Of a DNA stretch of 40,183 bases, positions 2,283 to 35,178 are shown piece after piece. Under the pieces are notes generated by a model, which saw only the letters and a program-made list of their open reading frames with translations, was not told the origin of the DNA and ran no database searches. Source of the DNA: Oscillospiraceae bacterium (GTDB lineage: Bacteria > Bacillota > Clostridia > Oscillospirales > Ruminococcaceae); contig JAGAKZ010000003.1 of the NCBI GenBank assembly GCA_017848115.1, positions 1 to 40,183 of the forward strand, in the 5' to 3' direction. How positions within the stretch are numbered: the stretch's first letter is position 1; every line of letters begins with the position of its first letter. Made by a program: the position numbers and the translations under genes.

Positions 2283-2784
2283 ATATAAATACAAACTCGG
2301 ACACGGTCTTGCAATAAATCCCGAAAAAGACATGGAGATGTTTAGCAGTATGAGCGAAAAAGGCTGGCATCTTACAGATCAGGGCGGTCTTATGTACCGT
2401 TTTGAGCAAGGAGAACCACAAAAATATATATACACCCTGAATACAGACGACGATATATCGGAAGATATGTACATCACCTATGAAAAATGCGGTTGGACAC
2501 CTGTTATAAAAGAAAAAGGAATGCATATCTTTCGTGCTAAGCCCGGTACTCCGGACATTTTCAGCGACACCGAATCCGAACTTGAACTTCTTGTAAAAGA
2601 ACGTCACAAATTTGGTATATATGCACTTGTAGCAGGAATAATACTTGCTGTTGTATTTGTACTTTCCCGATTGTTTGAAAGTTTCTGGTGGTCGATACCG
2701 CTTGTAATATGCTGGTGCCAGTTTGTTCTGGGATTTTTCCCTTTTGTCGGGCTGTGCAGACAGATCAAGAAAAAGAAAGCATAA
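2275..2784 (+). CDS. DUF2812 domain membrane protein
   Basis: A 169-aa protein. Residues 1-110 match the DUF2812 pattern (KEKGWHL-like motif at about 27-33, MYITYEKCGWTPV near 62-74). They are followed by two hydrophobic segments (about 117-136 and 141-160) and a basic end (KKKK). DUF2812 proteins are typically encoded directly after a PadR regulator, as here; a role as membrane-bound partner or anti-regulator has been suggested for the family but is not shown. Its ATG is inside the padR 3' end, with AGGAGG at 2261-2266 as ribosome site. Confidence 0.85.
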   Translation: MAKYKYKLGHGLAINPEKDMEMFSSMSEKGWHLTDQGGLMYRFEQGEPQKYIYTLNTDDDISEDMYITYEKCGWTPVIKEKGMHIFRAKPGTPDIFSDTESELELLVKERHKFGIYALVAGIILAVVFVLSRLFESFWWSIPLVICWCQFVLGFFPFVGLCRQIKKKKA

Positions 2785-2792
2785 AAAAATAA

Positions 2793-2838
2793 GGAGAATA
2801 CCGCCTCAGATAAATCTGAGATGATATTCTCCATTTTT
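2793..2838. terminator. bidirectional terminator between convergent units
   Basis: A nested hairpin has outer arms GGAGAATA (2793-2800) / TATTCTCC (2825-2832) and inner arms CTCAGA / TCTGAG (2805-2820). T-runs follow on both strands. It ends the PadR-DUF2812 unit and the large biosynthetic operon arriving from the right. Confidence 0.85.
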
Positions 2839-2847
2839 GTAATCAGA

Positions 2848-3015
2848 TTATTTCTTCTTACCTGCTGTTACATTAGGTACAATTCCAAATGCCAGTGCCA
2901 TTGCAAAGTAAAATATACTGCCTTTTACATCACCTTTTGACACTATCATTACTATACCAACAGCAAGCCATATCAATGCAATAATTATTGACATGATTAT
3001 TTTTTTCTTTGTCAT
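2848..3015 (-). CDS. small two-helix membrane peptide (55 aa), last gene of the biosynthetic operon
   Basis: A short frame opens at ATG 3015 with a GGAG ribosome site (3025-3028) 9 nt upstream. It encodes a basic N-terminus (MTKKK), a hydrophobic helix (about residues 6-25), a short polar turn (SKGDVKGS), a second hydrophobic stretch (about 33-48) and a Lys-rich end. It starts 32 nt after the thioesterase stop and ends just before the terminator, so it is probably co-transcribed with the cluster. No family recognised; a role in export, membrane placement or self-protection is speculation. Confidence 0.6.
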   Translation of the reverse strand: MTKKKIIMSIIIALIWLAVGIVMIVSKGDVKGSIFYFAMALAFGIVPNVTAGKKK

Positions 3016-3046
3016 AACTCACATCTCCGTTTATAAAATTTAACTT

Positions 3047-3742
3047 TTATAAAAGTTTTCCGGAAATCAGCTCACAGACGGCTTCTTTATTATCATTATA
3101 ATAAAAATGTCCGCCCGCAAAAGAATGAATATCACAGTTTTTCTGAGCAAAACGTTTCCAACCGTCTACGCCTGCCCCACTTAAAAGCTCATCTTCAGTT
3201 CCGTACAAAACACTTATATCACACGGAAACTTAAAAGTTTCTGGTGTCGGTCTGTACTTTTCGACCATACGTACATCTGCACCTATGATCTTTGATATCA
3301 TATTGAGCATTTCCTTATTTTCAAGTATCATATCAGGCAGTAATTTGTTTTTTATAAAAACATCTACTACATCACTGTCTGATATATCATCTTCTTCTGA
3401 AAATAATCCCGGTGCTTCATCGGGCGCACATCTTCCCGAAAGAAATACGTGCTTTGGTGCCGGCAAACCGTCCTTAACTGCAAGTCTTACAAACTCAAAG
3501 GCAAGCAGTGTACCCATGCTGTGACCAAATACCGCATAATCACCGTTTTCTATATGCTCACGATTTCGTCTGAGCAAATCTGTCGCACATTCTGTTATAT
3601 CATCAAAACAAGCTTCGGCTGTACGTGATCCTCTGCCGGCAGGCTCTGCAGGAATAAGTTCTATCCCGTTTGCAAGAAACTTTTTAAAAACGCAGTAACC
3701 TCTTGCCGAACCTCCTGCATGAGGTAAGATCAGAAGTTTCAT
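3047..3742 (-). CDS. type II thioesterase (alpha/beta hydrolase)
   Basis: 231 aa, the usual length of the GrsT/RifR-type external thioesterases that remove wrongly loaded or stalled acyl groups from carrier proteins. It has the family start (LLILPHAGGSARGY), the nucleophile elbow GHSMG, an acid in the DISVLYGTEDELLS segment and a catalytic His in FAGGHFYYN. The frame extends upstream to 3763, but the ATG at 3742 lies 5 nt after AGGAGG (3748-3753) and matches family N-termini; it directly follows the ACP stop. The neighbouring ACP and adenylating enzyme suggest it edits or releases the product of this cluster. Confidence 0.88.
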   Translation of the reverse strand: MKLLILPHAGGSARGYCVFKKFLANGIELIPAEPAGRGSRTAEACFDDITECATDLLRRNREHIENGDYAVFGHSMGTLLAFEFVRLAVKDGLPAPKHVFLSGRCAPDEAPGLFSEEDDISDSDVVDVFIKNKLLPDMILENKEMLNMISKIIGADVRMVEKYRPTPETFKFPCDISVLYGTEDELLSGAGVDGWKRFAQKNCDIHSFAGGHFYYNDNKEAVCELISGKLL

Positions 3743-3743
3743 C

Positions 3744-3995
3744 TTAGTCCTCCTGCGGTACACCTTCGTTTACGAGCAAGTCGAAAAGCTCGCCTATCTT
3801 ACTGAGTGAAGCAACAGATGAAACAGGTACGTTTCTCTTGAATGTATCTGTGATATGTGCTCTGAGTCCGAAAAGTCCGAGTGAATCAAGACAAAGGTCC
3901 TCGAAAACATCTGTATCCTTATTTATTTCTTCAATATCAAGTCCTACATAATCAGAAATGCTTTCTCTGAATATATCCCATGTTAATTCTGGCAT
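3744..3995 (-). CDS. acyl carrier protein (cluster ACP 2)
   Basis: An 83-aa carrier protein with the phosphopantetheine site LCLDSLGLFGL (Ser about residue 38) at the start of helix II and acidic flanking helices. It is clearly different from the housekeeping ACP at 16659. It lies between the AMP-dependent ligase (26 nt upstream) and the type II thioesterase (overlapping signals), so it is probably the carrier loaded by that ligase. A ribosome site (AAAGGGAG) precedes the ATG at 3995. Confidence 0.88.
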   Translation of the reverse strand: MPELTWDIFRESISDYVGLDIEEINKDTDVFEDLCLDSLGLFGLRAHITDTFKRNVPVSSVASLSKIGELFDLLVNEGVPQED

Positions 3996-4021
3996 TTTAA
4001 TAAAACTCCCTTTCGTTATTT

Positions 4022-5584
4022 TTAAACTTTTGCTTTTTCTCTGAGATATTTAAACTGTATCTTACCGATATCTTTTGGTATTTCTTCAACAACTACCACT
4101 TTATCAGGAAGTTTGTATGCAGAAAGCTTACCGTCAAAATAACGTGCTATCTCACCACGAGTCATCTTATCAACGCCTTCGGCAAGCTGAACATATGCAA
4201 CTATCTGCTGACCGATGATCTTGTGATCTTCGGCTGTTACTGCCGCTGCTGCGATCTTAGGGTGTGTAAGCAGTGCTGCTTCTACTTCTTCTGCGTGAAC
4301 AAGATTTCCGCCTCTTTTGATTATACGTTTGCTTCTTCCTGCAAAACGTACTCTGCCGTTTTCGATCTTACGTACAAGATCTCCTGTGCGGAACCATCTC
4401 TTGCCGTTTTCGTTTATTATCTTTTCTGCAGAAAGTTCAGGATTTCCAAAATAATCTGTTATTACTGCGTCAGTGAAAATGCAGAGTTCACCTACTTCAC
4501 CGTCAGCAACTTCCTTGTCACCCATTCCAAGAACTCTTACATCTGTAAACGGAAGCTTACGGAAATCACTAGGATCAGTATCATTGTCAAATGCTGAATC
4601 CCATACTACCATTGTAGCTGTTTCAGAAGAACCGATAACATTTATAACTCTGATATTAAGGTCATTTACAAATATATCAGCAACTTCACGTGGAAGAACT
4701 TCTCCTGCAAAATAGCAAACCTTTACGCTTGAAAGGTCATACTCTTCAAAACCGGGAACGGAAAGAAGAACTTTTGCAAGTGTTGCTGTAAGCTGTATTA
4801 CATTTACATGATATTTCTGAACTGTTTCAAGGAATGTAACAGGATTGAACTGTGGCTGATACATAACTGTTCCGCCCTTTACAGTATTCTGAAGTCCCAT
4901 TCCGAAACCGCCCTGATGATAAAGTGTCATACCTATCATCATAACATCATCTTCGCCAAATTCAAGATAATCGCTTATATCTTTTTCTGCCTGATAAAAT
5001 CCGTAGTAAGGAACGGATAAAACCTTTGGTGTGCCTGTACTTCCCGATGTGCATGCAAGTGACATGATATGATCGTCTTCAGGAACATAAATGTCACATT
5101 CTTCACCACAAAAGTCATTTCTGAATTTTTCAAAAGTAATAAACTCATCTGACTCAAACTTTTCCTCTGATTCCATATAGCAAACTACTTTCTGAAGAGG
5201 GAACTTTGATGGTACAAGCTCTTTGAGTGCGTTTACTATATTATTGCTTCTGTACTTTTCAGAAGCAAAGCACATCTTTATAGTAGTAGCAGGAATAAGA
5301 CGTGAAAGTTCAAGACTTCCGCTCTGTGGATCTATCGGAACAGGCTGTGCACCTATACGTATAGCTGACCAGAATACAAGATACCATTCTATGCTGTTTG
5401 GCATTACGATACCGATCTTGTCATCTTTATTTATTCCAAGTTTTTTCATACCTGAACCTATTACAGCAGTTTCTTTCATAAACTGACCGTATGTAAGCTC
5501 ATTGTCATCAATACGGAGAAGTACCTTTTCAGGTTTTTCGGATGCCATTGAAGTATAAGTATCAAAAAAAGTATTCTTATTCAT
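4022..5584 (-). CDS. AMP-dependent acyl ligase (acyl-CoA/acyl-ACP synthetase type)
   Basis: 520 aa, complete class I adenylate-forming enzyme. The P-loop is LACTSGSTGTPKV (about residues 177-188). GSSETA, the acidic WFRTGDLVRKI motif, the hinge GRSKRIIKRGG and the catalytic lysine in DIGKIQFKYL (about K508) are all present. It activates a carboxylic acid as acyl-AMP and transfers it to a thiol, here most likely an ACP just downstream. Its ATG overlaps the hydrolase stop (TAATG), so the two are translationally coupled. Substrate cannot be told from sequence; an aliphatic or aryl starter acid is possible. Confidence 0.88.
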   Translation of the reverse strand: MNKNTFFDTYTSMASEKPEKVLLRIDDNELTYGQFMKETAVIGSGMKKLGINKDDKIGIVMPNSIEWYLVFWSAIRIGAQPVPIDPQSGSLELSRLIPATTIKMCFASEKYRSNNIVNALKELVPSKFPLQKVVCYMESEEKFESDEFITFEKFRNDFCGEECDIYVPEDDHIMSLACTSGSTGTPKVLSVPYYGFYQAEKDISDYLEFGEDDVMMIGMTLYHQGGFGMGLQNTVKGGTVMYQPQFNPVTFLETVQKYHVNVIQLTATLAKVLLSVPGFEEYDLSSVKVCYFAGEVLPREVADIFVNDLNIRVINVIGSSETATMVVWDSAFDNDTDPSDFRKLPFTDVRVLGMGDKEVADGEVGELCIFTDAVITDYFGNPELSAEKIINENGKRWFRTGDLVRKIENGRVRFAGRSKRIIKRGGNLVHAEEVEAALLTHPKIAAAAVTAEDHKIIGQQIVAYVQLAEGVDKMTRGEIARYFDGKLSAYKLPDKVVVVEEIPKDIGKIQFKYLREKAKV

Positions 5585-6702
5585 TATTTCAGCCTTTCTG
5601 CAAGAAAATCTGCCGCAATATGCTTGACCCAGTGGAACTGTTCTCCTACCGGCATAGCATGCATAATGGTTTCTTCTGACGCATATGCCGGTTTTTCTTC
5701 AACAAGTATATGCTCCTTATACCCCTTTGCCCTGTCATAAAGTTTAACAGACGCATCTGTATCCATCCAGTTATCATCATCACTGTGAACCATAAGGAAG
5801 TCACATGATATATTACCTTCTTCTATGCTCTTCATACGTTCGAGATAATCATCATACTCTCCGTACTGATAAGCAGACCATTTTCCTCGTTTCATCCATA
5901 TCGGTATGTTTTCCATATCCGCAAAGTTAAGAAACAGCGGGAACAAACTTACGCAGCACTTTGTCTTTTCTCTCTTTGCAGAAGCACGGAATGCATATCC
6001 TCCGCCCATACAAAGACCATAGTTTGCCATACGTTCAGAGTCGATATCCTCTCTTGATTCAAGATAAGCTGATATTGCGTCAAATGCATCATCAAGCTGA
6101 TCTCCGATACATTTAAGGTCATAATCAAAAAGAGCCGAACCTGTACCCGGCATATCAACGTTAAGTACTGCTATTCCACGTTCGTTGAGTGCTGATGACA
6201 ACAGATCGAGTTCTTCCTTACAGCTTCCGATACCCGAATATGTTGTTACACATGGATACTTACCTGACTTTCCGTTATCGGGGAAATGAAGGTAAGCCGG
6301 TATCTTTCCGCCCTTTGTATCGATCTCAATAAATTCAACACGATTTGAACGAAGTGAAACTTCTTTTTTATAATACTTTTCAAGATTTTTATAGATTTCT
6401 CTTTTCTGCTCTATATCATCAGAATTTATCATATAGCATGCATAGTGGCAACGTGTAACCATTTTATAGTATTCTCTTGCTGAAATTATATTGCCCTTTT
6501 CCTCTGACATCTGAGCATATTTAAGATAGTGTTCTGCTTTTCTCTCCCATTCTCCAAGCCATACAACTTTGATCTGCTTTCCGCTCATAACTTTGATCTG
6601 GTCCATTTTCTGGAGAATGTACTCCATATCAAAAGAATTTGCTCCGTATAAAAGTGTTCTTGTTACAACCGGATTTAACAAATCACGAATTCGCCATTTC
6701 AT
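5584..6702 (-). CDS. FrsA/Ayg1-like (DUF1100) alpha/beta hydrolase with Cys nucleophile
   Basis: 372 aa. The N-terminal helical half (about 1-120) and the C-terminal alpha/beta-hydrolase core resemble the FrsA/DUF1100 family, which includes the fungal polyketide-shortening hydrolase Ayg1. The nucleophile elbow reads GLCMGGGYAF: Cys231 (codon at 6010-6012) replaces the usual Ser, as in dienelactone hydrolases. The likely acid is in HSDDDNWMD and the His in EQFHWVKH. It may hydrolyse, cleave or transfer an enzyme-bound acyl chain. It is coupled to the ligase gene. Start: ATG 6702 with AAAGGAAT-type site; spacing is ordinary. Confidence 0.8.
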   Translation of the reverse strand: MKWRIRDLLNPVVTRTLLYGANSFDMEYILQKMDQIKVMSGKQIKVVWLGEWERKAEHYLKYAQMSEEKGNIISAREYYKMVTRCHYACYMINSDDIEQKREIYKNLEKYYKKEVSLRSNRVEFIEIDTKGGKIPAYLHFPDNGKSGKYPCVTTYSGIGSCKEELDLLSSALNERGIAVLNVDMPGTGSALFDYDLKCIGDQLDDAFDAISAYLESREDIDSERMANYGLCMGGGYAFRASAKREKTKCCVSLFPLFLNFADMENIPIWMKRGKWSAYQYGEYDDYLERMKSIEEGNISCDFLMVHSDDDNWMDTDASVKLYDRAKGYKEHILVEEKPAYASEETIMHAMPVGEQFHWVKHIAADFLAERLK

Positions 6703-6758
6703 TATATATTTATTCCTTTCTGTTTTACACCTATATCATAATCTTTTTATTTTTTTAC

Positions 6759-7112
6759 TCATGGAGTATACTTCCATGCCCCCTGTCGGTCCATTTCTGT
6801 AAACTGCATATATATCCTGTACGGATCTACGCCTGTATACTCCTGTATATGTCCGAGCATACGATCTGCAAACATTTTTAAAAATCCGGACTTTTCCTGC
6901 TCGTCCTTAAAATCACGTATATAACGAAACTCAGCAAAAAAAACGGTATCATCTGAATTGTTCATATACATATGTTCATTTGATAACATAACCATAACAG
7001 CAGGCAGAGGCTTTTCAAGAATTTCCGACAGCAGATCTGCTGTCTTTGATAAAAAAGCTTTCCTTATCTGCTCGTCCATCTTATAGTTTGTTTTCATCTG
7101 ACAAATCGGCAT
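6759..7112 (-). CDS. MIF/phenylpyruvate tautomerase-like protein
   Basis: 117 aa, about the length of macrophage migration inhibitory factor (MIF) family members, which use an N-terminal proline as general base for keto-enol tautomerisation. The protein begins Met-Pro-Ile, so processing would expose Pro1. Further family features are KTADLLSEILEKPLPAVMV (Lys in the position of MIF Lys32) and DPYRIYMQFTEM, matching the MIF strand that carries Tyr95 (here Tyr) and Asn97 (here Gln). AAGGAG at 7121-7126 fixes the start. It lies in the same operon between ketosynthase and hydrolase, which suggests action on a beta-keto or enol intermediate. No biochemical assignment is possible. Confidence 0.72.
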   Translation of the reverse strand: MPICQMKTNYKMDEQIRKAFLSKTADLLSEILEKPLPAVMVMLSNEHMYMNNSDDTVFFAEFRYIRDFKDEQEKSGFLKMFADRMLGHIQEYTGVDPYRIYMQFTEMDRQGAWKYTP

Positions 7113-7133
7113 CAGGTATACTCCTTTTCGTAA

Positions 7134-8345
7134 TTATTCACTGTATCTGCGGAAAACAAGTGTTGCGTTATGACCGCCAAAACCAAATGAGTTTGACAAA
7201 GCAACATCTATTTTCTTCTGTCTTGCTTTATTTGGAATGTAATCGAGATCCAGTTCGGGATCAGGTACATTATAGTTCACTGTAGGCGGAAGGATATCTG
7301 TTTCTATCGCTTTTATACAAGCTATAGCTTCAAGAACGCCACCTGCACCGAGAGTATGACCTATAGCTGCCTTGACTGAGGACACCGGAACATCTTTTGC
7401 GTGCTCTCCGAGCAATCTCTTTATAGCCATTGTTTCATACTTGTCGTTCAATATAGTAGATGTACCGTGTGCATTTATATAGTCTACATCTTCAGTTGAG
7501 ATACCTGCATTTTCAAGAGCCATTCTCATTGTTTTCTCCATGCCTGTACCATCTGTCAGAGGTGCTGTAAGATCGTGAGCCTCTCCATACATAGAGTATC
7601 CTGCCAGTTCACAGTAAACTTTAGCATTTCTTCTTTTTGCCGATTCTTCTGATTCAAGAATAACTGTTCCTGCACCTTCACCCATAACAAAACCGTCACG
7701 ATTTGCTGTAAAAGGTACAGACGCACAGCTAGGGTCTTCGCATACAGACATCGCCATGATCTGATTAAAACCTTTTATAGCTGCATGAGATACCATAGAA
7801 CCCATTCCGCCTATCAATACCATATCATACATTCCGCACTTTATAAGCTGTGCACCGAGTGCCATAGCATAAGCGGATGAAGCACAAGCTGTGGAAACGT
7901 TGAATGATGTTCCGCTAAGACCATATTTTATAGAAACAAGTGCAGGGCAAACACTTGGTGTATCTTTGAGAATAGCATTGAGTGGAGTATCCTTTTCGGC
8001 ATCTCTGTATGAGTTGTTTATAACACCATATATCAGAGCTACTCTGTCTTTGTTCATTGTATCAAAATCAACACCACTGTCATCTATTGCTTCTCCTGAT
8101 GACGCAAGAGTCATTCTCATAGCTTTTGTAGTAGCATTAAGCTGACGCTTTTTCCAGTATTTCTTAACGAGTGTTTCAAACTCATCATCTACCTGAGCAG
8201 CTACTTTAGACTCATGATCATCAACCGGAATTCTTGTTATCTTATCTATACCGCATTTTCCTTCAACAAGACCATTCCAGTAATCTGCAACGGTACTTCC
8301 GATTGAAGTAACTGCGCCCATGCCTGTTATCAATACTTTAGACAT
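7134..8345 (-). CDS. FabF-type ketosynthase of the biosynthetic cluster
   Basis: 403 aa beta-ketoacyl-ACP synthase of the FabF/KS fold. The catalytic triad of a condensing KS is intact: Cys154 in STACASSAY, His293 in NAHGTSTILND, His330 in SVKAAIGHTLG. So it should elongate and is neither a chain-length factor nor a KSQ decarboxylase. It differs from the housekeeping FabF (21042) in the segment after residue 60 (KKRQLNATTKAM instead of KKELRRMDRFTQF), which helps line the acyl pocket in FabF. Start: the frame reaches 8357 by GTG, but AAAGGTG (8355-8361) sits 9 nt before ATG 8345. Confidence 0.9.
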   Translation of the reverse strand: MSKVLITGMGAVTSIGSTVADYWNGLVEGKCGIDKITRIPVDDHESKVAAQVDDEFETLVKKYWKKRQLNATTKAMRMTLASSGEAIDDSGVDFDTMNKDRVALIYGVINNSYRDAEKDTPLNAILKDTPSVCPALVSIKYGLSGTSFNVSTACASSAYAMALGAQLIKCGMYDMVLIGGMGSMVSHAAIKGFNQIMAMSVCEDPSCASVPFTANRDGFVMGEGAGTVILESEESAKRRNAKVYCELAGYSMYGEAHDLTAPLTDGTGMEKTMRMALENAGISTEDVDYINAHGTSTILNDKYETMAIKRLLGEHAKDVPVSSVKAAIGHTLGAGGVLEAIACIKAIETDILPPTVNYNVPDPELDLDYIPNKARQKKIDVALSNSFGFGGHNATLVFRRYSE

Positions 8346-8353
8346 ATATTTAA

Positions 8354-9490
8354 TCACCTTTCTTTATCTAAATATTTATCATATAAACTTTTATCTGCCG
8401 GTGTATACAACTCCCAGCCTGTATCATTTCTGAGTATTTCAAGAACATTGCTTATGCGTTCATAACCATAGGTTTTATAATAATCGCTCCATTTTCCTTC
8501 GATACCAACTGCATCAGCAACCGCTTCAGAAACTATATCAGGGTCTGTAACTTCACTTACCATATGTACTATTTCATTAAGCAATACGGAAATAACAGTG
8601 CATTTTAACTCTTCTGCGTCAATATTTCCGCTTTCAGCTGACTGCTTATTTTCCATATATGACAAAAATGTCCCCGGCACTCCCGGACAACCGTCACAGA
8701 CACATTTCTCCATCCATGAATCACCGTATTTTACGACAGGCTGTATTCTCTCAAGCTGAAAATTACCCGAACTTCTTCGTAACAACTCAAGACCTATACT
8801 GTCTATCATACCAAACAAACCGTGCATTGTAAAGATCTCAGATAATATCTCCATACTATCCCTGACCTTTATTCCTGCTTTTTCTGTACTGTATATTCCC
8901 TGTGAAACAGCCAGTGATATAAACTGATTCATATACATATGATAATCATTTTCAAAAATCACTGTATTTTTACCGATTTGAGAAGATATATCCCTGACTG
9001 CATTTACTGTCTTATCATGTGTGACTGACAATTTATTTATCTCTACAAATCCCGAAAGTTTTACAGGATAGAAAAAGTGCATTCCTATACAACGTTCCGG
9101 ATTTGGTACATCTTCAAATATCTTTTCAAGCAATAACGAAGATGTATTTGACGCAAAAATACACTGCTCTGATACAATTTCAGAAAGTTCTTTGAATACT
9201 TTCCTTTTTTCCTCCAGATCTTCTGTGATACATTCAATTACTATATCACAGCCCGATAATTCTGAAAGTGAATTTACGAAGGCAAATTTACGGCATTTTT
9301 CGTTGTAAACATCTTCTGTGATTTTTTTACGACGCAACGCCTTATCCAACTCTTTTTGTATCTTAACAGTGTGTATCTCTGTATCCTCTATGCAAACTAC
9401 AGTTACCCACGGCATAAAATCATTTTTATCAAACAAACCGTGAAATATCTCACAGCCCATCTTGCCGTATCCAACTATTCCGATTTTCAT
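8354..9490 (-). CDS. 3-hydroxyacyl-CoA dehydrogenase family protein
   Basis: 378 aa with the NAD(P)-binding 3HCDH N-terminal domain (GIVGYGKMG at 4-12, SNTSSLLLEKI near 115-125, the GMHFFYPVKLS signature) followed by a helical C-terminal domain. In beta-oxidation it oxidises 3-hydroxyacyl-CoA; beside a ketosynthase it could run backwards and reduce the 3-ketoacyl chain. The cluster has no SDR ketoreductase, so this is its only ketoreductase candidate. Its ATG overlaps the crotonase stop by 4 nt, and its own stop lies inside the ribosome site of the ketosynthase, indicating tight coupling. Confidence 0.87.
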   Translation of the reverse strand: MKIGIVGYGKMGCEIFHGLFDKNDFMPWVTVVCIEDTEIHTVKIQKELDKALRRKKITEDVYNEKCRKFAFVNSLSELSGCDIVIECITEDLEEKRKVFKELSEIVSEQCIFASNTSSLLLEKIFEDVPNPERCIGMHFFYPVKLSGFVEINKLSVTHDKTVNAVRDISSQIGKNTVIFENDYHMYMNQFISLAVSQGIYSTEKAGIKVRDSMEILSEIFTMHGLFGMIDSIGLELLRRSSGNFQLERIQPVVKYGDSWMEKCVCDGCPGVPGTFLSYMENKQSAESGNIDAEELKCTVISVLLNEIVHMVSEVTDPDIVSEAVADAVGIEGKWSDYYKTYGYERISNVLEILRNDTGWELYTPADKSLYDKYLDKER

Positions 9491-10197
9491 AAATCAATGT
9501 CTCCTTCGTTTTTTAGAAATTCCGAAATATAGCACTCTGTTTCACTTGGTTTATACTCCGAAACATTTGCAGATATCCATTCAATCAGATCAATTGCTTT
9601 TTTCAAACCTTGCTTTTTGTCAGCCATAATATCAGCCCAGCCGATTTCATATGCTTCCTGTGACGGAATAAGTTCACCGGTAAACACAAGCTGTATAGCT
9701 TTTGACAAACCGCATATTTCCACACTTCTTGCTATTCCACCAAGGGCAGGCAATATACCGAATGTTGATTCGGGCTGTCCTACTCTCGCTGTCGGTTCAC
9801 ATATACGTATGTGACTGTTTACAGCGATCTCGCTTCCCGAACCGATACAAAAACCGCTTATTACGCTTACTACCGGATAAGGAAGATCGTGAAGAAATGT
9901 TACAAGCTTTTTCTGTTTTACATGACCTTGTGAAAAATCATAATCACCGTTCATTGTTTCTGATTCTGTTGAAGAACGCTCTGCAAGCGACCCTACATCT
10001 GCTCCTACACTGAAGTGACGTGCACTTCCTTTTATTATCAAACCTTTTAATTTCTTTTTCTTAGATATTTCTGTCATAAGTTCTTCATACTGTCTGAAGA
10101 ACTCATCTGTCATCAGGTTATTTCCCGGTGCCTGCATCGTAAGAACAAGTATACCGTTTTCCTCGGAAATAACAAAATACTCATTATTCTGTTCCAT
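9487..10197 (-). CDS. enoyl-CoA hydratase/isomerase (crotonase) 2
   Basis: 236 aa crotonase fold. The oxyanion-hole segments are HFSVGADVGSL and GFCIGSGSEIA. Both catalytic glutamates of true hydratases have counterparts: the Glu in GSGSEIA (rat Glu144) and the Glu in VGQPESTFG (rat Glu164). It could hydrate, or in this context dehydrate, a 3-hydroxyacyl thioester. It overlaps the degenerate crotonase gene upstream by 14 nt and the dehydrogenase downstream by 4 nt. Confidence 0.85.
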   Translation of the reverse strand: MEQNNEYFVISEENGILVLTMQAPGNNLMTDEFFRQYEELMTEISKKKKLKGLIIKGSARHFSVGADVGSLAERSSTESETMNGDYDFSQGHVKQKKLVTFLHDLPYPVVSVISGFCIGSGSEIAVNSHIRICEPTARVGQPESTFGILPALGGIARSVEICGLSKAIQLVFTGELIPSQEAYEIGWADIMADKKQGLKKAIDLIEWISANVSEYKPSETECYISEFLKNEGDIDL

Positions 10198-10828
10198 TAA
10201 TACCAGCCTCCGATTTTTCCTTGATCAACTTATAAAACTGACATGATTCTTCACGCATAACAAGCTCGGTATCACCTGTCCTTGCATACATAAAGCATGA
10301 TATCAAAGCTTTAATCTGAAACGGAGACTTTTCTTTAAGTAATCTCTGGGCATAGTCTGTAACACTGTCTTTAAGCTCAGACTCTGTTTCCATTACCTTT
10401 ACCAGCCCTGTGGCAAAAAGATCATCAGATTTCTTTTCTAAAAAATCTTTGTAACGCTGTGCTTCTTTGCGACCGCACATAATTTCATATTTTTTTAACT
10501 GCTCATCGGAAAGCTTAATATCGTGACCAAGACTGTATGCCGTATTGCCTGTACGTATGTCAAACAATGTCATACCGTCAAAAGAAACCTCTGAAAAATC
10601 AGACTTCATTCCGATAGTAAGAGCATCTATATTTTTAAAATATTCCTGTATATTCTCCCTGATTACATTATCCTCAGGAAGACTAAACGTTCCACCGATA
10701 TTTACTATCAGAACAGCTGCATCTTTTTCAAGGCGATCGTTTATTGCTTCGCTGTTCTGAAATATATCCTGTGGCGAATCGGACTCTACTAAAACAATAT
10801 TGTTATATGTTTCTATTTTCAAGTTCAT
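10184..10828 (-). CDS. degenerate crotonase-like protein (no recognisable active site)
   Basis: 214 aa. The C-terminal 50 residues (YAQRLLKEKSPFQIKALISC onward) look like the last helices of the crotonase fold, and the N-terminal strands (NIVLVESDSP, AAVLIVNIGG) fit its first beta layers. The HFSxGAD and GG-x-E oxyanion motifs and both catalytic Glu residues are missing. It may be a structural or regulatory partner of the adjacent crotonases, as DpgB-like crotonase homologues are in other clusters; that comparison is only an analogy. Its start lies 26 nt inside the thioesterase gene and its end 14 nt inside the next crotonase. Confidence 0.6.
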   Translation of the reverse strand: MNLKIETYNNIVLVESDSPQDIFQNSEAINDRLEKDAAVLIVNIGGTFSLPEDNVIRENIQEYFKNIDALTIGMKSDFSEVSFDGMTLFDIRTGNTAYSLGHDIKLSDEQLKKYEIMCGRKEAQRYKDFLEKKSDDLFATGLVKVMETESELKDSVTDYAQRLLKEKSPFQIKALISCFMYARTGDTELVMREESCQFYKLIKEKSEAGINGTE

Positions 10829-11216
10829 TGCACTCCACGTATTTTTTTATAAAATCAGGTACATCGCATATTATCCGTTCATTATTTACAAAAACAAGCT
10901 TTCCTGTTACCTTGCAGGCAATCTGACCACTTGTCTGATTTCTTATAATATGCTTGTACTCCATGATACTGCTTCCGCACTTCCATGTGGTTTCAACAGC
11001 AACTTCATCCATCATCTTAAGTTCATGCATATACCGAAGATTATTTTCCAGTATAACCGGAAAATATCCATCTGCTGTGATGTTCTCAAGAAGGCCGGTC
11101 TGATTAAAAAAATCCCATTTTGCAGCTTCGGCATACTGCAGATATACAGCATTATTTACATGTCCGAATGAATCAAGTTCATATCCGCGTACAGTCAGAT
11201 GATATATACTTTTCAT
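10803..11216 (-). CDS. hot-dog fold acyl thioesterase (4HBT/YbgC type)
   Basis: 137 aa from ATG 11216. The family signature GYELDSFGHVNNAVYLQYAE carries the Asp used as nucleophile/base in 4-hydroxybenzoyl-CoA-type thioesterases. The core is a single hot-dog domain. A longer frame (to 11291) runs inside the upstream crotonase; ATG 11216 is 1 nt after that gene's stop, with GGAGAGA at 11221-11227, and matches family N-termini. It may release the finished acyl chain from ACP or CoA, giving the operon two different thioesterases plus a hydrolase. Confidence 0.85.
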   Translation of the reverse strand: MKSIYHLTVRGYELDSFGHVNNAVYLQYAEAAKWDFFNQTGLLENITADGYFPVILENNLRYMHELKMMDEVAVETTWKCGSSIMEYKHIIRNQTSGQIACKVTGKLVFVNNERIICDVPDFIKKYVECNELENRNI

Positions 11217-11217
11217 A

Positions 11218-11934
11218 CTATCTCTCCGACAATCCGCGTAAAACTGCTTCAAATTTTCCCTTTGAAGGATCTTCTTCAAGTCTGGCAGCATTGTTTATAG
11301 TTTCAACAATACTGCGAATCTGAAGTGTACTCTTTCCTTCGGTGAGTGATTTTATAAATTCAAATGCACTCTCCAGACAGTTTCCTTCTGCTATATCTGT
11401 AATAAGACCATACTGCTTTGCGTCTGATGCGGATATCATTTCCCCTCTCAGACACATCATCAGAGCTTTCTCTTTTCCGATAAGGCGATACATACGTTCC
11501 ATACCACCCATTCCCGGTACTACACCATGCATTACTTCTGTAAGCCCGAAAAATGAACGTTTGGAGGATATACGGAACTGACAGCTAAGTGCTATTTCAA
11601 GTCCTCCGCCAAAACATCCGCCATTTATAGCGGCAACAGTAATAAGAGGCAGGTTCTCTATGATACATAACAGTTTTCTTGTCTTTTCCAGTTTCCTGGA
11701 AATACCGTCTGTATCAGAACCGGAAAAGAGAGATACATCTGCTCCGTGTGAAAAATGACGTCCTGCTCCTGTAATAACAAGAGATGTAAGCTCAGGATGT
11801 TCATCTATCCATTTGCAGAAAACATCTGTATCTATAAACTCAGGCTCTGTAAGCAGATTCTTAGCACCGTTCTCCAATGTAAGTACTGCTGTAGAACCCT
11901 CTGCGTAAATTGATGAAATATTAGATTTTACCAT
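11218..11934 (-). CDS. enoyl-CoA hydratase/isomerase (crotonase) 1
   Basis: 238 aa crotonase with HFSHGADVSLF, GGCFGGGLEIALS (Glu144 counterpart) and FFGLTEVMHGVVPG (Glu164 counterpart), so both hydratase glutamates are present. It lies 6 nt downstream of the cluster ACP 1 stop and is followed at once by the hot-dog thioesterase. With crotonase 2 it gives the operon two apparently active hydratases/dehydratases, perhaps for different chain lengths, or one acting as an isomerase. Confidence 0.85.
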   Translation of the reverse strand: MVKSNISSIYAEGSTAVLTLENGAKNLLTEPEFIDTDVFCKWIDEHPELTSLVITGAGRHFSHGADVSLFSGSDTDGISRKLEKTRKLLCIIENLPLITVAAINGGCFGGGLEIALSCQFRISSKRSFFGLTEVMHGVVPGMGGMERMYRLIGKEKALMMCLRGEMISASDAKQYGLITDIAEGNCLESAFEFIKSLTEGKSTLQIRSIVETINNAARLEEDPSKGKFEAVLRGLSER

Positions 11935-11940
11935 ACGTGA

Positions 11941-12249
11941 TTATTCCGAAAGGTTAACTATATCATTTCCGTACTGATAAACCTTGCAGAATACATCTAC
12001 AACGTCAGCCATTGTGTTAAGTGGTGCTTTAAGCATATATTTACCGATGCTCTGAAGCTTTATATCAAGATCATACTTGTCAGCTGTAAGTTCAACAAGT
12101 TCAACGAACATGAGTGAATCGCTTCCGAGTTCTTCCTGAGGATTTGTTTCCATTGTTATTTCGTCTCTGTCAACTTCGCATTCCTCTGCATAGTAGTCAA
12201 AAATCATATCCTTGATTTCCTGTCTTATAGCTTCTGTAATTTCTTTCAT
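11941..12249 (-). CDS. acyl carrier protein (cluster ACP 1)
   Basis: 102 aa, longer than a normal ACP. The phosphopantetheine serine is in ELGSDSLMFVELVEL (about residue 44). The loop and helix III region (KLQSIGKYMLKAPLNTM) is unusual. Standing first after the acyltransferase and before the crotonase, it is likely the carrier for extension chemistry. AGGTAA precedes ATG 12249. It is separated from the acyltransferase by 154 nt, the largest gap in the operon. Confidence 0.85.
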   Translation of the reverse strand: MKEITEAIRQEIKDMIFDYYAEECEVDRDEITMETNPQEELGSDSLMFVELVELTADKYDLDIKLQSIGKYMLKAPLNTMADVVDVFCKVYQYGNDIVNLSE

Positions 12250-12403
12250 AATTTACCTCCAAGTAATATTTGAAACTTATAAATAAAATATCTTAAAGCT
12301 TTACTTTTTTATTAGTAAAAGCAAACTTTAAATCTGATTACAGCAGAAAGCTTTCTCTGCCTGGTATGTAGCATTGTCATAAAAACAACGCTCGATAAAA
12401 ACA
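12250..12403 (-). other. non-coding gap inside the biosynthetic operon
   Basis: No plausible small gene. An imperfect hairpin (about 12299-12324, arms GCTTTACT / AGTAAAAGC with one bulged A) lies between the acyltransferase and ACP 1. It could moderate read-through or protect a processed RNA end. No strong separate promoter was found. Confidence 0.35.
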
Positions 12404-13297
12404 TCACAGATCTGCATATGTATAGATTTTAGAAGATCTCTTTTTAAGTCTTGAAAACTTCTTTATTGCACCATCTGCGCTTGTATCATAAAACTCTGTT
12501 ACTCCGAGTTCTTCCATTTTCGCAATGGACAGATCCCATCTCATAGGTGTTATGATATCTTTTATCTGTTCTTCTCTGATCTCCTCTGCTGTCATCATAG
12601 GCTCATTTGTAAATACGGAAACTATAGGATATTCCGGGTCTTTATAATCTACCTCTGACACAAGCTTCTGATATGCGCTTGCATACGGTTCTATCAAAGG
12701 TGTGTGATAAGCCATTCCGACATTCATTTTTATAGCTTTCAACGCTCCTTCATTTGTTGCAGCCTCAAGAACTCTGGCTACTGAAGGTTCTCTGCCTGTT
12801 ATCATGGAACATATACGCGAGTTGACACTTCCTATAACTACATTTTCAGATTCACCTGTACTCTGTATGATTTCTGAAATATCATTGCCGTCCATTCCTA
12901 TGATAACACCCATATCAAAATGTTTATCATTCTGCTCAAGGGCAAGTACTGTATTTCTGTTACAGAATATAATATCATATGAAACATCGTATGATATCGA
13001 TGAAAAACAAGCACATGCACCGACAAGCCCTGAACTGTAACCGCAACCTATCTGAGGAACTATGCCTTTTTCTCTGAACGCCTCATAAACAACTCTGTCT
13101 GCTATGGTTGACATAAGTGCTCCTGCTACAAGCCTGTCTGTTTTTTTATTATCAATCAAGCTTGGATTAAGACCATATCTTTTAAACACTTCTTCAACAT
13201 ATGTATCGTATTTATCACGGTCGGCAGGTGACAGACTTTGTCGCAACTTTTCAGGCTTTGAACATATTCCGTTAAACAAAAAAGCTTTGTTATACAA
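12404..13297 (-). CDS. FabD-like acyltransferase (cluster AT)
   Basis: 297 aa from TTG 13297. It resembles malonyl-CoA:ACP transacylases: the AFLFNG start corresponds to FPGQG, the nucleophile elbow is GYSSGLVGA (Ser88; family usually GHSLGE), and the catalytic His is in GMAYHTPLIEPYA. The Tyr in place of the elbow His and the altered start motif set it apart from the housekeeping FabD at 24356, so it may use another acyl-CoA or act as a proof-reading acyl hydrolase. Start: the frame reaches TTG 13327, but AAGGAG at 13307-13312 lies 9 nt before TTG 13297. Confidence 0.8.
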   Translation of the reverse strand: MYNKAFLFNGICSKPEKLRQSLSPADRDKYDTYVEEVFKRYGLNPSLIDNKKTDRLVAGALMSTIADRVVYEAFREKGIVPQIGCGYSSGLVGACACFSSISYDVSYDIIFCNRNTVLALEQNDKHFDMGVIIGMDGNDISEIIQSTGESENVVIGSVNSRICSMITGREPSVARVLEAATNEGALKAIKMNVGMAYHTPLIEPYASAYQKLVSEVDYKDPEYPIVSVFTNEPMMTAEEIREEQIKDIITPMRWDLSIAKMEELGVTEFYDTSADGAIKKFSRLKKRSSKIYTYADL

Positions 13298-13367
13298 AAA
13301 AATCTTCTCCTTACAAACAAAAAACAAGGACCTGCTATAAAGTCACTTGTTATCCACCATTTTTATT

Positions 13368-13434
13368 GCAGTGTAAACTGCTTATCCCAAATCATTACCT
13401 GTAATATTATAACATAATCATTTTCTAAAATCAA
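13368..13434 (-). promoter_or_regulatory. promoter of the biosynthetic operon
   Basis: On the minus strand a -35 TTGATT (13429-13434), 17-bp spacer and -10 TATAAT (13406-13411) predict a start near 13399. The roughly 100-nt leader contains an inverted repeat GCAGT-N4-ACTGC (13368-13381), about 20-30 nt into the transcript, which could be an operator. No dedicated regulator gene is next to it. Confidence 0.65.
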
Positions 13435-21041: not shown

Positions 21042-22274
21042 TTAATCAACTGATTTAAAACATATAGTTGCGTTGTGTCCGCCAAATCCAAGAGAATTTG
21101 ACAACGCCGCATTTATCTTCATATTTATATTTCCGTCTACGCAGTAATCAAGGTCGCATTCTTCATCAGGCACCTTGTATCCTACTGTCTTATGAACAAG
21201 ACTGTTTTTCATCTGAAGTGCAACTGCTATTGCTTCAACAGCACCTGCCGCACCGAGAAGATGACCTACCATAGACTTTGTGGAATTTATTTTAAGCTTA
21301 GCGGCACTGTCGCCAAAAGCTTTCTTTATTGCGGTTGTTTCATATTTGTCATTTAATCCTGTGGAAGTACCGTGAGCATTGATATAATCTACATCTTCAG
21401 GTTTGAGTCCTGCTTCAGTATAAGCATTTATCATCGCTCTGGCTGCCGCATCTCCCTCAGGTGACGGTGATGTCATATGATATGCATCGGCTGTAGCACC
21501 GTATCCTGCTATCTCAGCATATATCTTTGCACCTCTTGCCTTAGCGTGTTCATATTCTTCAAGAACAAGTATACCGCTTCCTTCGCCAAGAATAAAACCG
21601 TTTCTTTCCTTGTCAAAAGGAATTGACGCACGTTCAAGGTCGTTCGATCTGGAAAGTGCTTTCATATTATTGAAACCGCCGAGTGCAAACTCTGTAATAC
21701 AGCTTTCTGTACCACCGCATACACAAGCGTCCATGTATCCGTCCTTTATCTTACGGAAAGCTTCACCTATAGCGTGTGTTGAAGAAGCACAAGCTGTAAC
21801 AGTTGCGAAGTTGTCGCCTCTGAAATCATGCTTCATGGCAATAGTACCTGCCGCCATATTTCCTATCATCATAGGCACGTAAAATACTGAGATTCTGCCC
21901 GATCCTTTTTCAAGATATTTACCATGTTCCTGCTCGGTAAGCTCAAGTCCGCCTATACCGCAACCTACGATAACACCTACTCTGTACGGATCAAGATCTT
22001 TAAAATCCGTACCGCAGTCCTTAACAGCTTCATTTGCCGCTGTTACTGCAAACTGAGTAAATCTGTCCATACGTCTTAATTCTTTTTTGTCGATACTTTC
22101 ATCAGGCTGAAAATCCTTTACCTGACTTACTATCTTTACTTCAAAGTTTTCTGTATCAAATTTATCTATAAACGAAAATCCGAGTTTTCCCTCAGATATT
22201 CCTTTCCAGAATTCATCTTTATTGGCACCAAGGGAGTTTACTGTCCCAAGGCCTGTGATAACTACTCTACGCAA
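21042..22274 (-). CDS. fabF: 3-oxoacyl-ACP synthase II FabF (housekeeping)
   Basis: 410 aa. Catalytic Cys in TACASSTHAIG, His residues in NAHGTSTGLND and STKSMVGHLLGA, and the FabF gate segment RRMDRFTQFA. It elongates acyl-ACP with malonyl-ACP. The frame starts at ATG 22283, but AAGGAG directly abuts that ATG; TTG 22274 is 9 nt after it and gives the family-typical MRRVVITGLG start, so I chose it. Confidence 0.93.
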   Translation of the reverse strand: MRRVVITGLGTVNSLGANKDEFWKGISEGKLGFSFIDKFDTENFEVKIVSQVKDFQPDESIDKKELRRMDRFTQFAVTAANEAVKDCGTDFKDLDPYRVGVIVGCGIGGLELTEQEHGKYLEKGSGRISVFYVPMMIGNMAAGTIAMKHDFRGDNFATVTACASSTHAIGEAFRKIKDGYMDACVCGGTESCITEFALGGFNNMKALSRSNDLERASIPFDKERNGFILGEGSGILVLEEYEHAKARGAKIYAEIAGYGATADAYHMTSPSPEGDAAARAMINAYTEAGLKPEDVDYINAHGTSTGLNDKYETTAIKKAFGDSAAKLKINSTKSMVGHLLGAAGAVEAIAVALQMKNSLVHKTVGYKVPDEECDLDYCVDGNINMKINAALSNSLGFGGHNATICFKSVD

Positions 22275-22295
22275 AAGTCGCATCTCCTTTATATA

Positions 22296-23036
22296 TTACA
22301 TTGACAATCCGCCTGATATTTCTATGGTCTGACCTGTTATATATCCTGCATCTTCAGAAAATAAGAATGACACAAGACCTGCCACTTCAGACACTTTCCC
22401 ATATCTCTTCAGTGAAATATTTTCAAGTATAGCATTTCTTACTTCTTCACTGAGTTCCTCTGTCATAGGAGTTTCTATAAATCCCGGTGCAATAGCATTT
22501 ACTGTTATTCCTCTTGAACCGAGTTCCTTAGCGGCTGATTTTGTCATACCTATGATGGCTGCTTTTGAAGCCGCATAATTGAATTGACCGGCATTTCCGT
22601 AAAGACCTATAACGGAAGAAATATTTACTATACGTCCGCTTTTCTGTCTGAGCATTACTGCGCCTACGTGTTTCATCATATTATAAACGCTTTTCTGATT
22701 TGCGTTTATAACTTCATCATAAGCTTCTTCAGTCATTCTCACCAGAAGTCCGTCACGTGTTATACCTGCATTGTTAACAAGGTAATCTATGGTTGAAAAT
22801 CGCTTCTTTACTGCCTCGACCATAGCTTTACACTGTTCAAAATCAGATACATCGGCTGCAAAACATTCCGCTTCCACACCATAGCTTCTGAGTTCTTCGG
22901 CAAGCTGTCTGCCACCGTTTTCTATTCGCTGCTCACTGCGGCAATTTATAGCCACATTTATACCGTCTTTTGCAAGTCTTCTTGCTATTGCTGCACCTAT
23001 CCCCTGAACTGCTCCCGTAACAATTGCTGTACTCAT
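22296..23036 (-). CDS. fabG: 3-oxoacyl-ACP reductase FabG
   Basis: 246 aa SDR enzyme. Cofactor loop TGAVQGIGAAIA, NNAGITRDGLL, and the Ser-Tyr-Lys triad in NISSVIGLYG and FNYAASKAAIIG. It reduces 3-ketoacyl-ACP with NADPH. GGAGG stands before ATG 23036. This is the only SDR ketoreductase in the window and is separate from the upstream biosynthetic cluster. Confidence 0.94.
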   Translation of the reverse strand: MSTAIVTGAVQGIGAAIARRLAKDGINVAINCRSEQRIENGGRQLAEELRSYGVEAECFAADVSDFEQCKAMVEAVKKRFSTIDYLVNNAGITRDGLLVRMTEEAYDEVINANQKSVYNMMKHVGAVMLRQKSGRIVNISSVIGLYGNAGQFNYAASKAAIIGMTKSAAKELGSRGITVNAIAPGFIETPMTEELSEEVRNAILENISLKRYGKVSEVAGLVSFLFSEDAGYITGQTIEISGGLSM

Positions 23037-23071
23037 AATTTCCTCCGTTTCAGATATTTTTTGTTTTTTTA

Positions 23072-24064
23072 TCAGTATTCAAAGCAGACTGCACCATAGG
23101 TGAGACCTGCACCGAAACCAACAAGAGCAATCTTATCGCCTCTTTTTACAGAGCCGTTTTCAACTGCTTCGCTAAGGGCGAGCGGGATACTCGCACTTGA
23201 AGTATTTCCATAACGTTCTATATTTACATAGAACTTATCCATAGGAAGACCCAGTTTTGAGGCCGCTGTCTGTATTATACGGATATTGGCCTGATGAGGT
23301 ATTACCATATCAAGATCTTCCACGTTAAAATCAGATTTTTCAAGAGCTTTGTTTACCGCAAAAGGAAGTATGCCTACTGCAAACTTGTAAACTTCCTTAC
23401 CATCCTGTGCAAGGAATCCTGCATATTCGCTCTGTTTTTCAGGTTCTTCTATATTTTTTATTTTATAAAAAGGATTTAATTTATTGCTTATAACGTCAGC
23501 CCTGAGGAAATCAGCACCATTTCCGTCAGCACCGATAAAACTTGAATATGAAGTATCTGCCGCACACAGTACGACAGCAGCAGCTCCGTCACCAAAAAGT
23601 ATGCATGACGCTCTGTCTTCATAGTTTACTATCTTTGAAAGGTTTTCAGCACTGACAACCAGTACATTTCTTGCAGAACCTGTTGCAAGATACTTATGAG
23701 CCATATCGACTGCATATACAAAACCTGAACACGCACAACTCGCATCAAATGCCATACACCCTGTAATACCGAGTTCTCTCTGTATCATACACGCTGTTGA
23801 AGGGAACAGTGAATCAGGTGTAACTGTTGTACATATGATCATATCTATCTCTTCCTTGGAGATCCCCGAATTTTCCACCGCTTTCAGAGCCGCATTCGCT
23901 CCGCACTTCCATGTAGGAGTACCCATGGCATAGTGTCTTTCCTTTATGCCTGTTCTTGTAGTTATCCATTCATCGTTGGTTTCTATAACCCCGGTAAAAT
24001 CGTCATTGGATATTACTGTTTCCGGCACATATGAACCTATGCCTAAAATTTTTATACCTTGCAA
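23072..24064 (-). CDS. fabH: 3-oxoacyl-ACP synthase III FabH
   Basis: 330 aa. Catalytic Cys in DASCACSGFVYA, His in MVIPHQANIRI, Asn in ERYGNTSSASIPLAL. It starts fatty acid synthesis by joining acetyl- or branched-acyl-CoA to malonyl-ACP. First gene of the operon; start is TTG 24064, 8 nt after GGAGG. Confidence 0.94.
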   Translation of the reverse strand: MQGIKILGIGSYVPETVISNDDFTGVIETNDEWITTRTGIKERHYAMGTPTWKCGANAALKAVENSGISKEEIDMIICTTVTPDSLFPSTACMIQRELGITGCMAFDASCACSGFVYAVDMAHKYLATGSARNVLVVSAENLSKIVNYEDRASCILFGDGAAAVVLCAADTSYSSFIGADGNGADFLRADVISNKLNPFYKIKNIEEPEKQSEYAGFLAQDGKEVYKFAVGILPFAVNKALEKSDFNVEDLDMVIPHQANIRIIQTAASKLGLPMDKFYVNIERYGNTSSASIPLALSEAVENGSVKRGDKIALVGFGAGLTYGAVCFEY

Positions 24065-24355
24065 TAAATTTTCCTCCTATAACATTGTTTTATTCATTAA
24101 TTTGTGATATTATTAATAATATAAGTTTTACTTACTTATATGTACTTTTCCTTTCCGCTGTGGTCATCATATCATCAAATATGACTCCTGCGGAAAATCA
24201 TTCAAATATTATTTTAAACTATTTTTTATAAATTTGCAACAACACTTTTAATTAATAATATAAACTTCCTGAAAATTGATTATTTTTATTCATTTTCATG
24301 TAGTTTTTATAGATATTTTATGCAAGTTTACCACCAAGAAAGGAATATATTTTTT
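24065..24355. promoter_or_regulatory. divergent fabH-fabD regulatory region with dyads
   Basis: No gene in this 291-nt AT-rich stretch. It holds a perfect 16-bp palindrome (24107-24122, made of ATTATTAATAAT), a TATAAGT/ACTTATA inverted repeat (24120-24140), and a long hairpin whose outer arms are TTTCCGC (24152-24158) and GCGGAAA (24190-24196) with inner arms GTCAT/ATGAC. These are candidate operator and leader structures for a fatty acid regulator. I could not match them securely to FapR or FabT boxes, and no clear -35/-10 pair stands out. Confidence 0.45.
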
Positions 24356-25264: not shown

Positions 25265-25287
25265 TAAAAACAAAGGGGAAAAGAAAT

Positions 25288-35037: not shown

Positions 35038-35083
35038 TTGACTTACATAAAACAATATGGTATAATTATACTTGTTCGAACAA
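35038..35083 (+). promoter_or_regulatory. promoter of the dockerin protein gene with 12-bp palindrome
   Basis: TTGACT (35038-35043), 17-bp spacer and TATAAT (35061-35066) predict a start near 35073. A perfect palindrome TTGTTCGAACAA (35072-35083) covers the start site and may be an operator. The leader to ATG 35179 is about 105 nt. Confidence 0.65.
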
Positions 35084-35178
35084 TATTGGTTTTACAAATT
35101 TGTAATGTTTTAATTTTTAGCAAACGCAAGCATAAATGTTTGCAATCTTTAAGGGTAAAAATAACGGAGGATTTAATT

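Follow-up and report, generated by a model that had tools for sequence, protein, structure and literature searches.

Aryl polyene and polyene type II polyketide synthases (PKS) use a pair of ketosynthases (KS-alpha and KS-beta), to which the aryl polyene systems add a homodimeric KS of the kind found in fatty acid synthesis (FAS) (PMC9582728). For AntI, which acts in the formation of Photorhabdus anthraquinones, a published study describes hydrolysis of an intermediate bound to an acyl carrier protein (ACP), retro-Claisen trimming of the chain and ring closure from an acyl-enzyme at Ser245, a Ser nucleophile being given for both AntI and Ayg1 (PMC11165489). The haliangicin cluster, in which a 3-hydroxyacyl-CoA dehydrogenase (3HCDH) serves methoxymalonyl-ACP, contains FkbH-like and acyl-CoA dehydrogenase genes as well (PMC4768178). 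The operon described here occupies positions 2848 to 13297 on the minus strand of the first 40,183 nucleotides of contig JAGAKZ010000003.1 from an Oscillospiraceae bacterium; this whole stretch is referred to as the window. Judged from its genes and their conserved residues, the operon fairly probably encodes a type II PKS/FAS-like system with a lone KS, in which a reductive loop resembling reversed beta-oxidation would work on ACP-bound chains and a Pro1 tautomerase together with an AntI-like hydrolase bearing a Cys nucleophile would finish the product.

Fourteen minus-strand open frames were packed from approximately 13297 down to 2848, and all 14 same-strand genes of the original prediction were confirmed. 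Intergenic gaps ranged from -26 to +56 bp, with the exception of the 154 bp between AT and ACP1, and a purine-rich ribosome-binding site, as judged by eye, preceded most of the genes. Protein families were assigned with Pfam/NCBIfam models and their cut-offs, the roles of residues in AT, KS, crotonase, HCDH, MIF, hydrolase and thioesterase were taken from their families, and residue counts refer to the window plus 15 relatives (16 rows) unless another number of rows is given. Thirteen genes, listed below in operon order, form the system considered here; the 14th, a membrane peptide, follows TE2 and is set outside it.

12404..13297, minus strand: AT, malonyl-transferase-like acyltransferase (fabD model 86.4 bits, below the cut-off of 260.9)
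11941..12249, minus strand: ACP1 (PP-binding 22.6 bits, cut-off 20.8; DSL serine in 16/16)
11218..11934, minus strand: ECH1, crotonase (ECH_1 111 bits; both catalytic Glu in 16/16)
10803..11216, minus strand: HD, hot-dog thioesterase of the YbgC/FadM type (4HBT_2 72 bits; TIGR00051 40 bits, below cut-off)
10184..10828, minus strand: ECHd, degenerate truncated crotonase (matches no family)
9487..10197, minus strand: ECH2, crotonase (ECH_1 100 bits; both Glu in 16/16)
8354..9490, minus strand: HCDH, 3-hydroxyacyl-CoA dehydrogenase homologue (3HCDH_N 139.8 bits; C-domain under cut-off)
7134..8345, minus strand: KS, FabF-like elongating ketosynthase (TIGR03150 422 bits, cut-off 493.75)
6759..7112, minus strand: MIF-family tautomerase (PF01187 23.6 bits, cut-off 22)
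5584..6702, minus strand: FrsA/AntI-like alpha/beta hydrolase with a Cys nucleophile (Cys231, Asp310 and His357 in 16/16)
4022..5584, minus strand: LIG, acyl-AMP ligase (AMP-binding 185 bits)
3744..3995, minus strand: ACP2 (PP-binding 33.8 bits; DSL serine in 16/16)
3047..3742, minus strand: TE2, type II thioesterase (PF00975 114 bits; GHSxG in 16/16)

The features of a type II FAS or PKS were found as discrete proteins: a KS with Cys-His-His (16/16 rows) and no chain-length-factor gene adjoining it, ACPs with the DSL serine, and an AT in which Ser and His were kept in all 15 rows aligned. Carrier-bound acyl assembly, as proposed earlier for this operon, remained the likeliest logic. His138, Glu150 and Asn188 of HCDH, which is predicted to be a probable ketoreductase, occurred in 16/16 rows, and its NAD-binding motif, like the His region of TE2, was absent solely from the broken genes of one relative (L106). 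The MIF-family protein kept Pro2 (Pro1 of the mature protein), Lys34 and Tyr101 in all 16 rows, and the closest solved structures to HD were putative thioesterases. When ECHd and nine proteins at the same position were compared as a profile with a crotonase profile (hhalign, a single comparison), 179 columns were aligned with a probability of 97.3 and E 2e-11; because of this alignment ECHd is read as a degenerate crotonase, possibly non-catalytic. The earlier assignments held for these 13 genes, that of ECHd through the profile comparison. The start of AT had to be shifted, probably to the TTG at 13297, and the 55-aa membrane peptide gave no tblastn match in the 15 relatives, a weak test at such short length.

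Relatives were gathered by scanning GTDB genomes with KS, limited to the best 80 of 255 confirmed matches, and by genome searches for the hydrolase and LIG. Fifteen were counted, two from the KS scan (L005 and L011) and thirteen from fetched regions (L103-L115). Loci of the window's own species (the pair L007 and L116), repeat genomes (L003, identical to L105; L010, to L108; L012, to L109) and loci whose operon was cut at contig ends (the pair L004 and L119, and L006) were not counted. The claim that the genes form one co-inherited set, for which a search of other genomes had been recommended, was borne out by the recurrence of the set in these 15 further loci. All 13 genes were present by tblastn in 13 of the 15 relatives; L005, which ends at a contig end, was without AT, and ECHd of L110 was detected by BLASTP only. 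The hydrolase gene of L104, L106 and L107 was placed between HCDH and KS, yet still within the set, and the genes flanking the operon mostly varied among loci, with some shared neighbours (for example, L111/L113 and L106/L107). In L007 (GTDB, Ruminococcus sp. isolate SIG549) the same operon was found with the 13 genes at 97-100% protein identity. Inter-locus distances of ten other operon proteins correlated with those of KS (r 0.70-0.92, 14 rows), a correlation that would be partly expected from shared species descent alone. ECH2 and HCDH were fused in a single FadB-like frame of about 600 aa in L103 (genome G399) and in L004/L119 (G403), which supports successive action of the two enzymes.

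A profile of six operon hydrolases searched against PDB gave AntI as the best match (E 5.8e-20, positions 41-353 of 377), followed by dihydroxypseudo-oxynicotine hydrolase and then by Ayg1-type enzymes. As in AntI and Ayg1, an N-terminal domain precedes the alpha/beta-hydrolase domain, and similarity extended over most of the length. The nucleophile motif was GLCMGGG, with Cys in 16/16 rows, and the GXSXG Ser of AntI and Ayg1 was not present; a Cys at this place could favour thioester transfer or cyclisation. The original prediction had called both the Cys-hydrolase and the KS correctly; it had recognised neither the likeness of the hydrolase to AntI nor the wider KS clade with different partners that is described below, nor that AT may select an extender other than malonyl.

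In the route that these proteins suggest, LIG would activate a carboxylic acid and load it on one ACP, probably ACP2, and KS would extend the chain with a unit bound to ACP1; this unit, probably malonyl, would be provided by AT or cellular FabD. The beta-keto group would then be reduced by the HCDH homologue in place of FabG, and the crotonases would dehydrate or isomerise in place of FabZ. We infer from the gene content, the intact active sites and the ECH2-HCDH fusion that the enzymes of beta-oxidation would thus run backwards on ACP thioesters. No enoyl reductase is encoded in the operon, and therefore the chain should remain unsaturated. The Pro1 tautomerase would shift or enolise a double bond or keto group, the AntI-like hydrolase would take the chain onto its Cys and trim, cyclise or release it, and HD and TE2 may edit or release the chain.

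Each of the known systems shares part of this arrangement. Type II fatty acid synthesis has in common with the operon a stand-alone AT, a FabF-like KS with Cys-His-His and ACPs, but the operon KS belongs to a clade apart from FabF, 3HCDH and crotonases replace FabG and FabZ, and homologues of FabF, FabD and FabH are encoded elsewhere in the window. The Photorhabdus ant type II PKS resembles it in the carrier-bound logic and the two-domain AntI-like hydrolase; the ant cluster also has an AMP-ligase. Unlike that system, the operon is without KS-beta/chain-length factor, aromatase or cyclase, and its hydrolase has Cys for Ser245. Reducing, iterative type II logic is shared with the aryl polyene and polyene PKS, which differ from the operon with its one KS and its 3HCDH/crotonase set; an aryl polyene or aromatic type II PKS was rejected, since no KS-alpha/KS-beta pair was found and the operon holds a single KS. 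An ACP with two crotonases also occurs in the beta-branching cassettes built around HMG synthase, which were discarded likewise: none of the 13 proteins matched HMG synthase, and the KS Cys was intact in 16/16 rows, so that the KS is not of the decarboxylating type. On these grounds the earlier statement that the operon falls outside the classes then listed was upheld. Use of 3HCDH for methoxymalonyl-ACP, as in haliangicin, was also rejected, the FkbH-like and acyl-CoA dehydrogenase genes of that cluster being absent from the 13. The operon is type II PKS/FAS-like by logic, yet without a defining feature of each named class tested.

Separate FabD (24320-25264) and FabF (21042-22283) genes were present inside the window, and therefore the operon is not the housekeeping fatty acid synthase. 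In the surrounding region (21042-26636) the homologues of FabF and FabH are encoded on the minus strand; FabD, on the plus strand, is divergent from them, and next come the genes for shikimate dehydrogenase and shikimate kinase. Seven of the 11 genus genomes (G000, G396, G397, G398, G399, G401 and G403) gave exactly two KS matches, one in the operon and the other scoring like FabF, so that a KS-beta partner has no place in the assembled parts of those seven. Additional KS matches appeared in G394 (C1:24451-25188), G402 (C48 and C253) and G400 (C3), and some of the additional KS of the genus lay in frames of 774 to 2558 aa resembling large PKS proteins.

A tree of 41 KS separated a group of 28, formed by KS of the operon and of other clusters, from 13 FabF-type KS that included the FabF of the window (support 100/100). 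Fourteen of the 16 operon KS fell in one supported set, with those of L108 and L109 as a pair beside it, and therefore the operon type is not shown as one lineage. The other 12 members of the clade (L008, L009, L013-L020, L030 and L064) came from Lachnospiraceae, other clostridia, Bacteroidota, a Spirochaetota bin, a proteobacterial bin and further bacteria. Homologues of KS, ACP1, ECH1, HD, ECH2, HCDH and AT were found in six of the nine related loci longer than 14 kb; the exceptions were L016, without an HCDH match, L008, without an AT match at the threshold, and L064, without both crotonases and HD. No match to MIF, hydrolase, LIG, ACP2 or TE2 was obtained in the stretches examined of any of the 12 related loci. 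Nine of them encoded a KASIII homologue and a B12-binding radical SAM protein, whereas L018, L019 and L064 showed neither. StlD was the nearest solved relative of the KASIII of L013 (E 6e-14), and in the three KASIII proteins aligned the Cys was kept and the catalytic His of FabH was not. At E 1e-40, a StlD-like KASIII was found in 0 of 398 genomes of the phylum sample, a search for which no positive control was used.

The shared core and the differing accompanying enzymes point therefore to a common acyl-building core with varied starting and finishing enzymes. We put forward tentatively, with slightly less than even confidence, that these loci represent a class of bacterial type II synthase not described before and spread across Bacillota, Bacteroidota and Spirochaetota. 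In this class one homodimeric KS would act on carrier proteins together with a reverse-beta-oxidation module made up of 3HCDH, paired crotonases and a further, catalytically dead crotonase that may serve as scaffold. Its ends would be swapped by lineage: the Pro1 tautomerase and the Cys-dependent, AntI-type trimming or cyclising hydrolase in the family of the window, a StlD-like condensing enzyme and B12 radical SAM proteins elsewhere.

Gene content varied among the related loci. The clostridial L008, L009, L013, L015, L017 and L030 carried the KS core with StlD-like KASIII, B12 radical SAM protein and phosphopantetheinyl transferase (PPTase). Upstream lay an aldehyde:ferredoxin oxidoreductase in L008 and L015, and a two-gene 2-oxoacid:ferredoxin oxidoreductase in L009, L013, L017 and L030. 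L008 also contained glycosyltransferases and two condensation-domain-like proteins, one of them over the Pfam cut-off. In the Bacteroidota loci L014 and L016, KASIII was present, ACP and AT were separated by an AcpS-like gene, and genes for B12-binding radical SAM proteins lay nearby (of those in L014, Pfam confirmed one and tblastn another, and a third was recognised by look only).

Crotonases and 3HCDH are classic degradative enzymes, and two explanations start from this. It is hardly credible that genes of ordinary beta-oxidation or butyrate-type fermentation, as the family names of ECH1, ECH2 and HCDH would have it, adjoin PKS-like genes by chance, for the genes have stayed together in 15 loci and the usual partners were not found. 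All 19 crotonase matches in the 11 genus genomes were located at the operon, and acyl-CoA dehydrogenase (PF00441) was detected in none of the 11, as compared with nine of 14 control genomes. The 3HCDH C-domain gave no match in the genome of the window, with seven of 14 controls positive. Neither thiolase nor acyl-CoA dehydrogenase is encoded in the operon, thiolase not having been searched for genome-wide. This absence of partners across the genus led to the rejection of beta-oxidation and butyrate-type genes, and the possibility raised in the original prediction that the operon serves ordinary fatty acid breakdown failed. The missing thiolase and acyl-CoA dehydrogenase count also against loading by LIG of an exogenous acid (e.g., a plant-derived aromatic) that would be shortened in the beta-oxidation direction and freed by the hydrolase. 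Such processing would agree with LIG as the most conserved large protein, having a nearly invariant pocket, and with dihydroxypseudo-oxynicotine hydrolase, a member of the hydrolase family, as the best single-sequence match. Two ACPs, AT, KS and TE2 indicate assembly, and we regard the route as improbable.

A role in lipid modification, that is, a side branch making an unusual unsaturated or ring-bearing fatty acid for membrane lipids instead of a secreted metabolite, seems unlikely, although a FabF-like KS without a second KS in the operon, the combination of LIG and ACP, which recalls the logic of acyl-ACP synthetases, and the lack of an exporter or resistance gene would suit it. An AntI-like Cys-hydrolase, MIF and a type II thioesterase are unexpected for a bulk membrane lipid, and the distribution was accessory in the sparse samples available. 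LIG was present in 12 of 396 sampled family genomes (five of 126 genera, E 1e-100) and the hydrolase in one of 394 sampled order genomes (E 1e-40), that of the window alone. Within the genus the hydrolase was found in nine of 11 genomes; in G403 a contig end fell inside the hydrolase gene, its neighbours being present, and G395 gave no crotonase match either.

Several observations weigh against the operon being a PKS/FAS-like system with a lone KS, a reversed beta-oxidation loop and a finishing tautomerase and Cys-hydrolase. The KS passed the cut-off of the broader FabF subfamily model NF005589 (418.6 bits, cut-off 387), with which a role in modified lipids could fit. The KS tree was made without reference polyketide KS and says nothing on the place of the operon KS among known PKS classes. 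The window hydrolase searched alone matched dihydroxypseudo-oxynicotine hydrolase (4.3e-15) and an Ayg1-like enzyme (6.5e-11) ahead of AntI (1.3e-7). The two ECH2-HCDH fusion proteins resemble each other closely and may stem from a single event, and in L106 (G394) HCDH and TE2 were each broken into two frames, the rest of the operon being complete. The operon contains no PPTase, exporter, regulator or resistance gene; a PPTase is encoded elsewhere in the genome of the window. Lastly, the column of the Arg presumed to hold malonate in FabD, as located by eye, contained Arg in none of the 15 AT rows, so the acyl specificity of AT is not fixed as malonyl, and by its sequence AT may carry a non-malonyl acyl group or be an editing hydrolase.

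Arg occurred, also by eye, one column later in seven of the 15 AT rows (the window and six relatives) and not in the other eight. Two AT subtypes around the Ser, G[YH]SSG and GYSLG, divided the relatives and differed near the malonate-Arg region; they possibly correspond to different extender units or to an editing role. Mean pairwise identity was highest for LIG (69%) and ACP1 (68%) among the 11 proteins compared (14 rows), and three stretches of the LIG pocket were nearly letter-identical across 16 rows, which suggests one common acid substrate across the relatives. In amino-acid adenylation domains the Asp of core A4 binds the alpha-amino group. The corresponding LIG motif, M[TP]LYHQGGFGMG in 16/16 rows, had no Asp at the presumed A4 place (positioned by eye), and this region suggests a non-amino acid substrate. 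The best-scoring PDB chains for LIG were gramicidin synthase modules; next in score came aryl-AMP ligases, that for 2,3-dihydroxybenzoate among them. L108 and L109 carried a second AMP-ligase after TE2, approximately 24% identical to LIG.

Among the matches listed in the open-access full-text literature, which leaves most subscription journals uncovered, no title or abstract opening described the gene set of the operon. PKS clusters seem to be rare in the genomes of rumen microbes: a survey reports 75 PKS in a total of 14,814 clusters and tallies 2,800 aryl polyenes separately (PMC8241843). Cluster finders depend on similarity to known clusters (PMC11747023), so that genes resembling those of FabF and beta-oxidation in so compact an operon could escape them. 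If the proposed assembly route holds, KS, 3HCDH and two crotonases with ACPs would provide a recognisable gene signature, and the operon would offer an example of a polyketide-trimming hydrolase with Cys as nucleophile and of a tautomerase engaged in acyl assembly.

The transcript appears to be bounded by the following elements, the membrane peptide belonging to it by position.

13406..13434, minus strand: candidate promoter, extended -10, 10/12 consensus positions
2848..3015, minus strand: membrane peptide of 55 aa, without a family match
2780..2836, minus strand: intrinsic terminator (fold -24.2 kcal/mol, z -6.35, then a U-run)

One good promoter and one terminator had been predicted. The terminator was strong by folding, yet unlisted in a simple terminator scan; the promoter at 13434-13406 is plausible only, the 63 promoter-like matches in the region not exceeding those in shuffled sequences (54.8, sd 9.6). 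The operon is flanked upstream by a divergent CorA gene and downstream by a convergent DUF2812 gene. The draft genome that contains it comprises 3.34 Mb in 108 contigs and is 81% complete. Elsewhere in the window, a GH26-CBM35 glycoside hydrolase (29445-31055) and a leucine-rich-repeat protein with a dockerin (35038-36084) are reminiscent of cellulosome-bearing bacteria.

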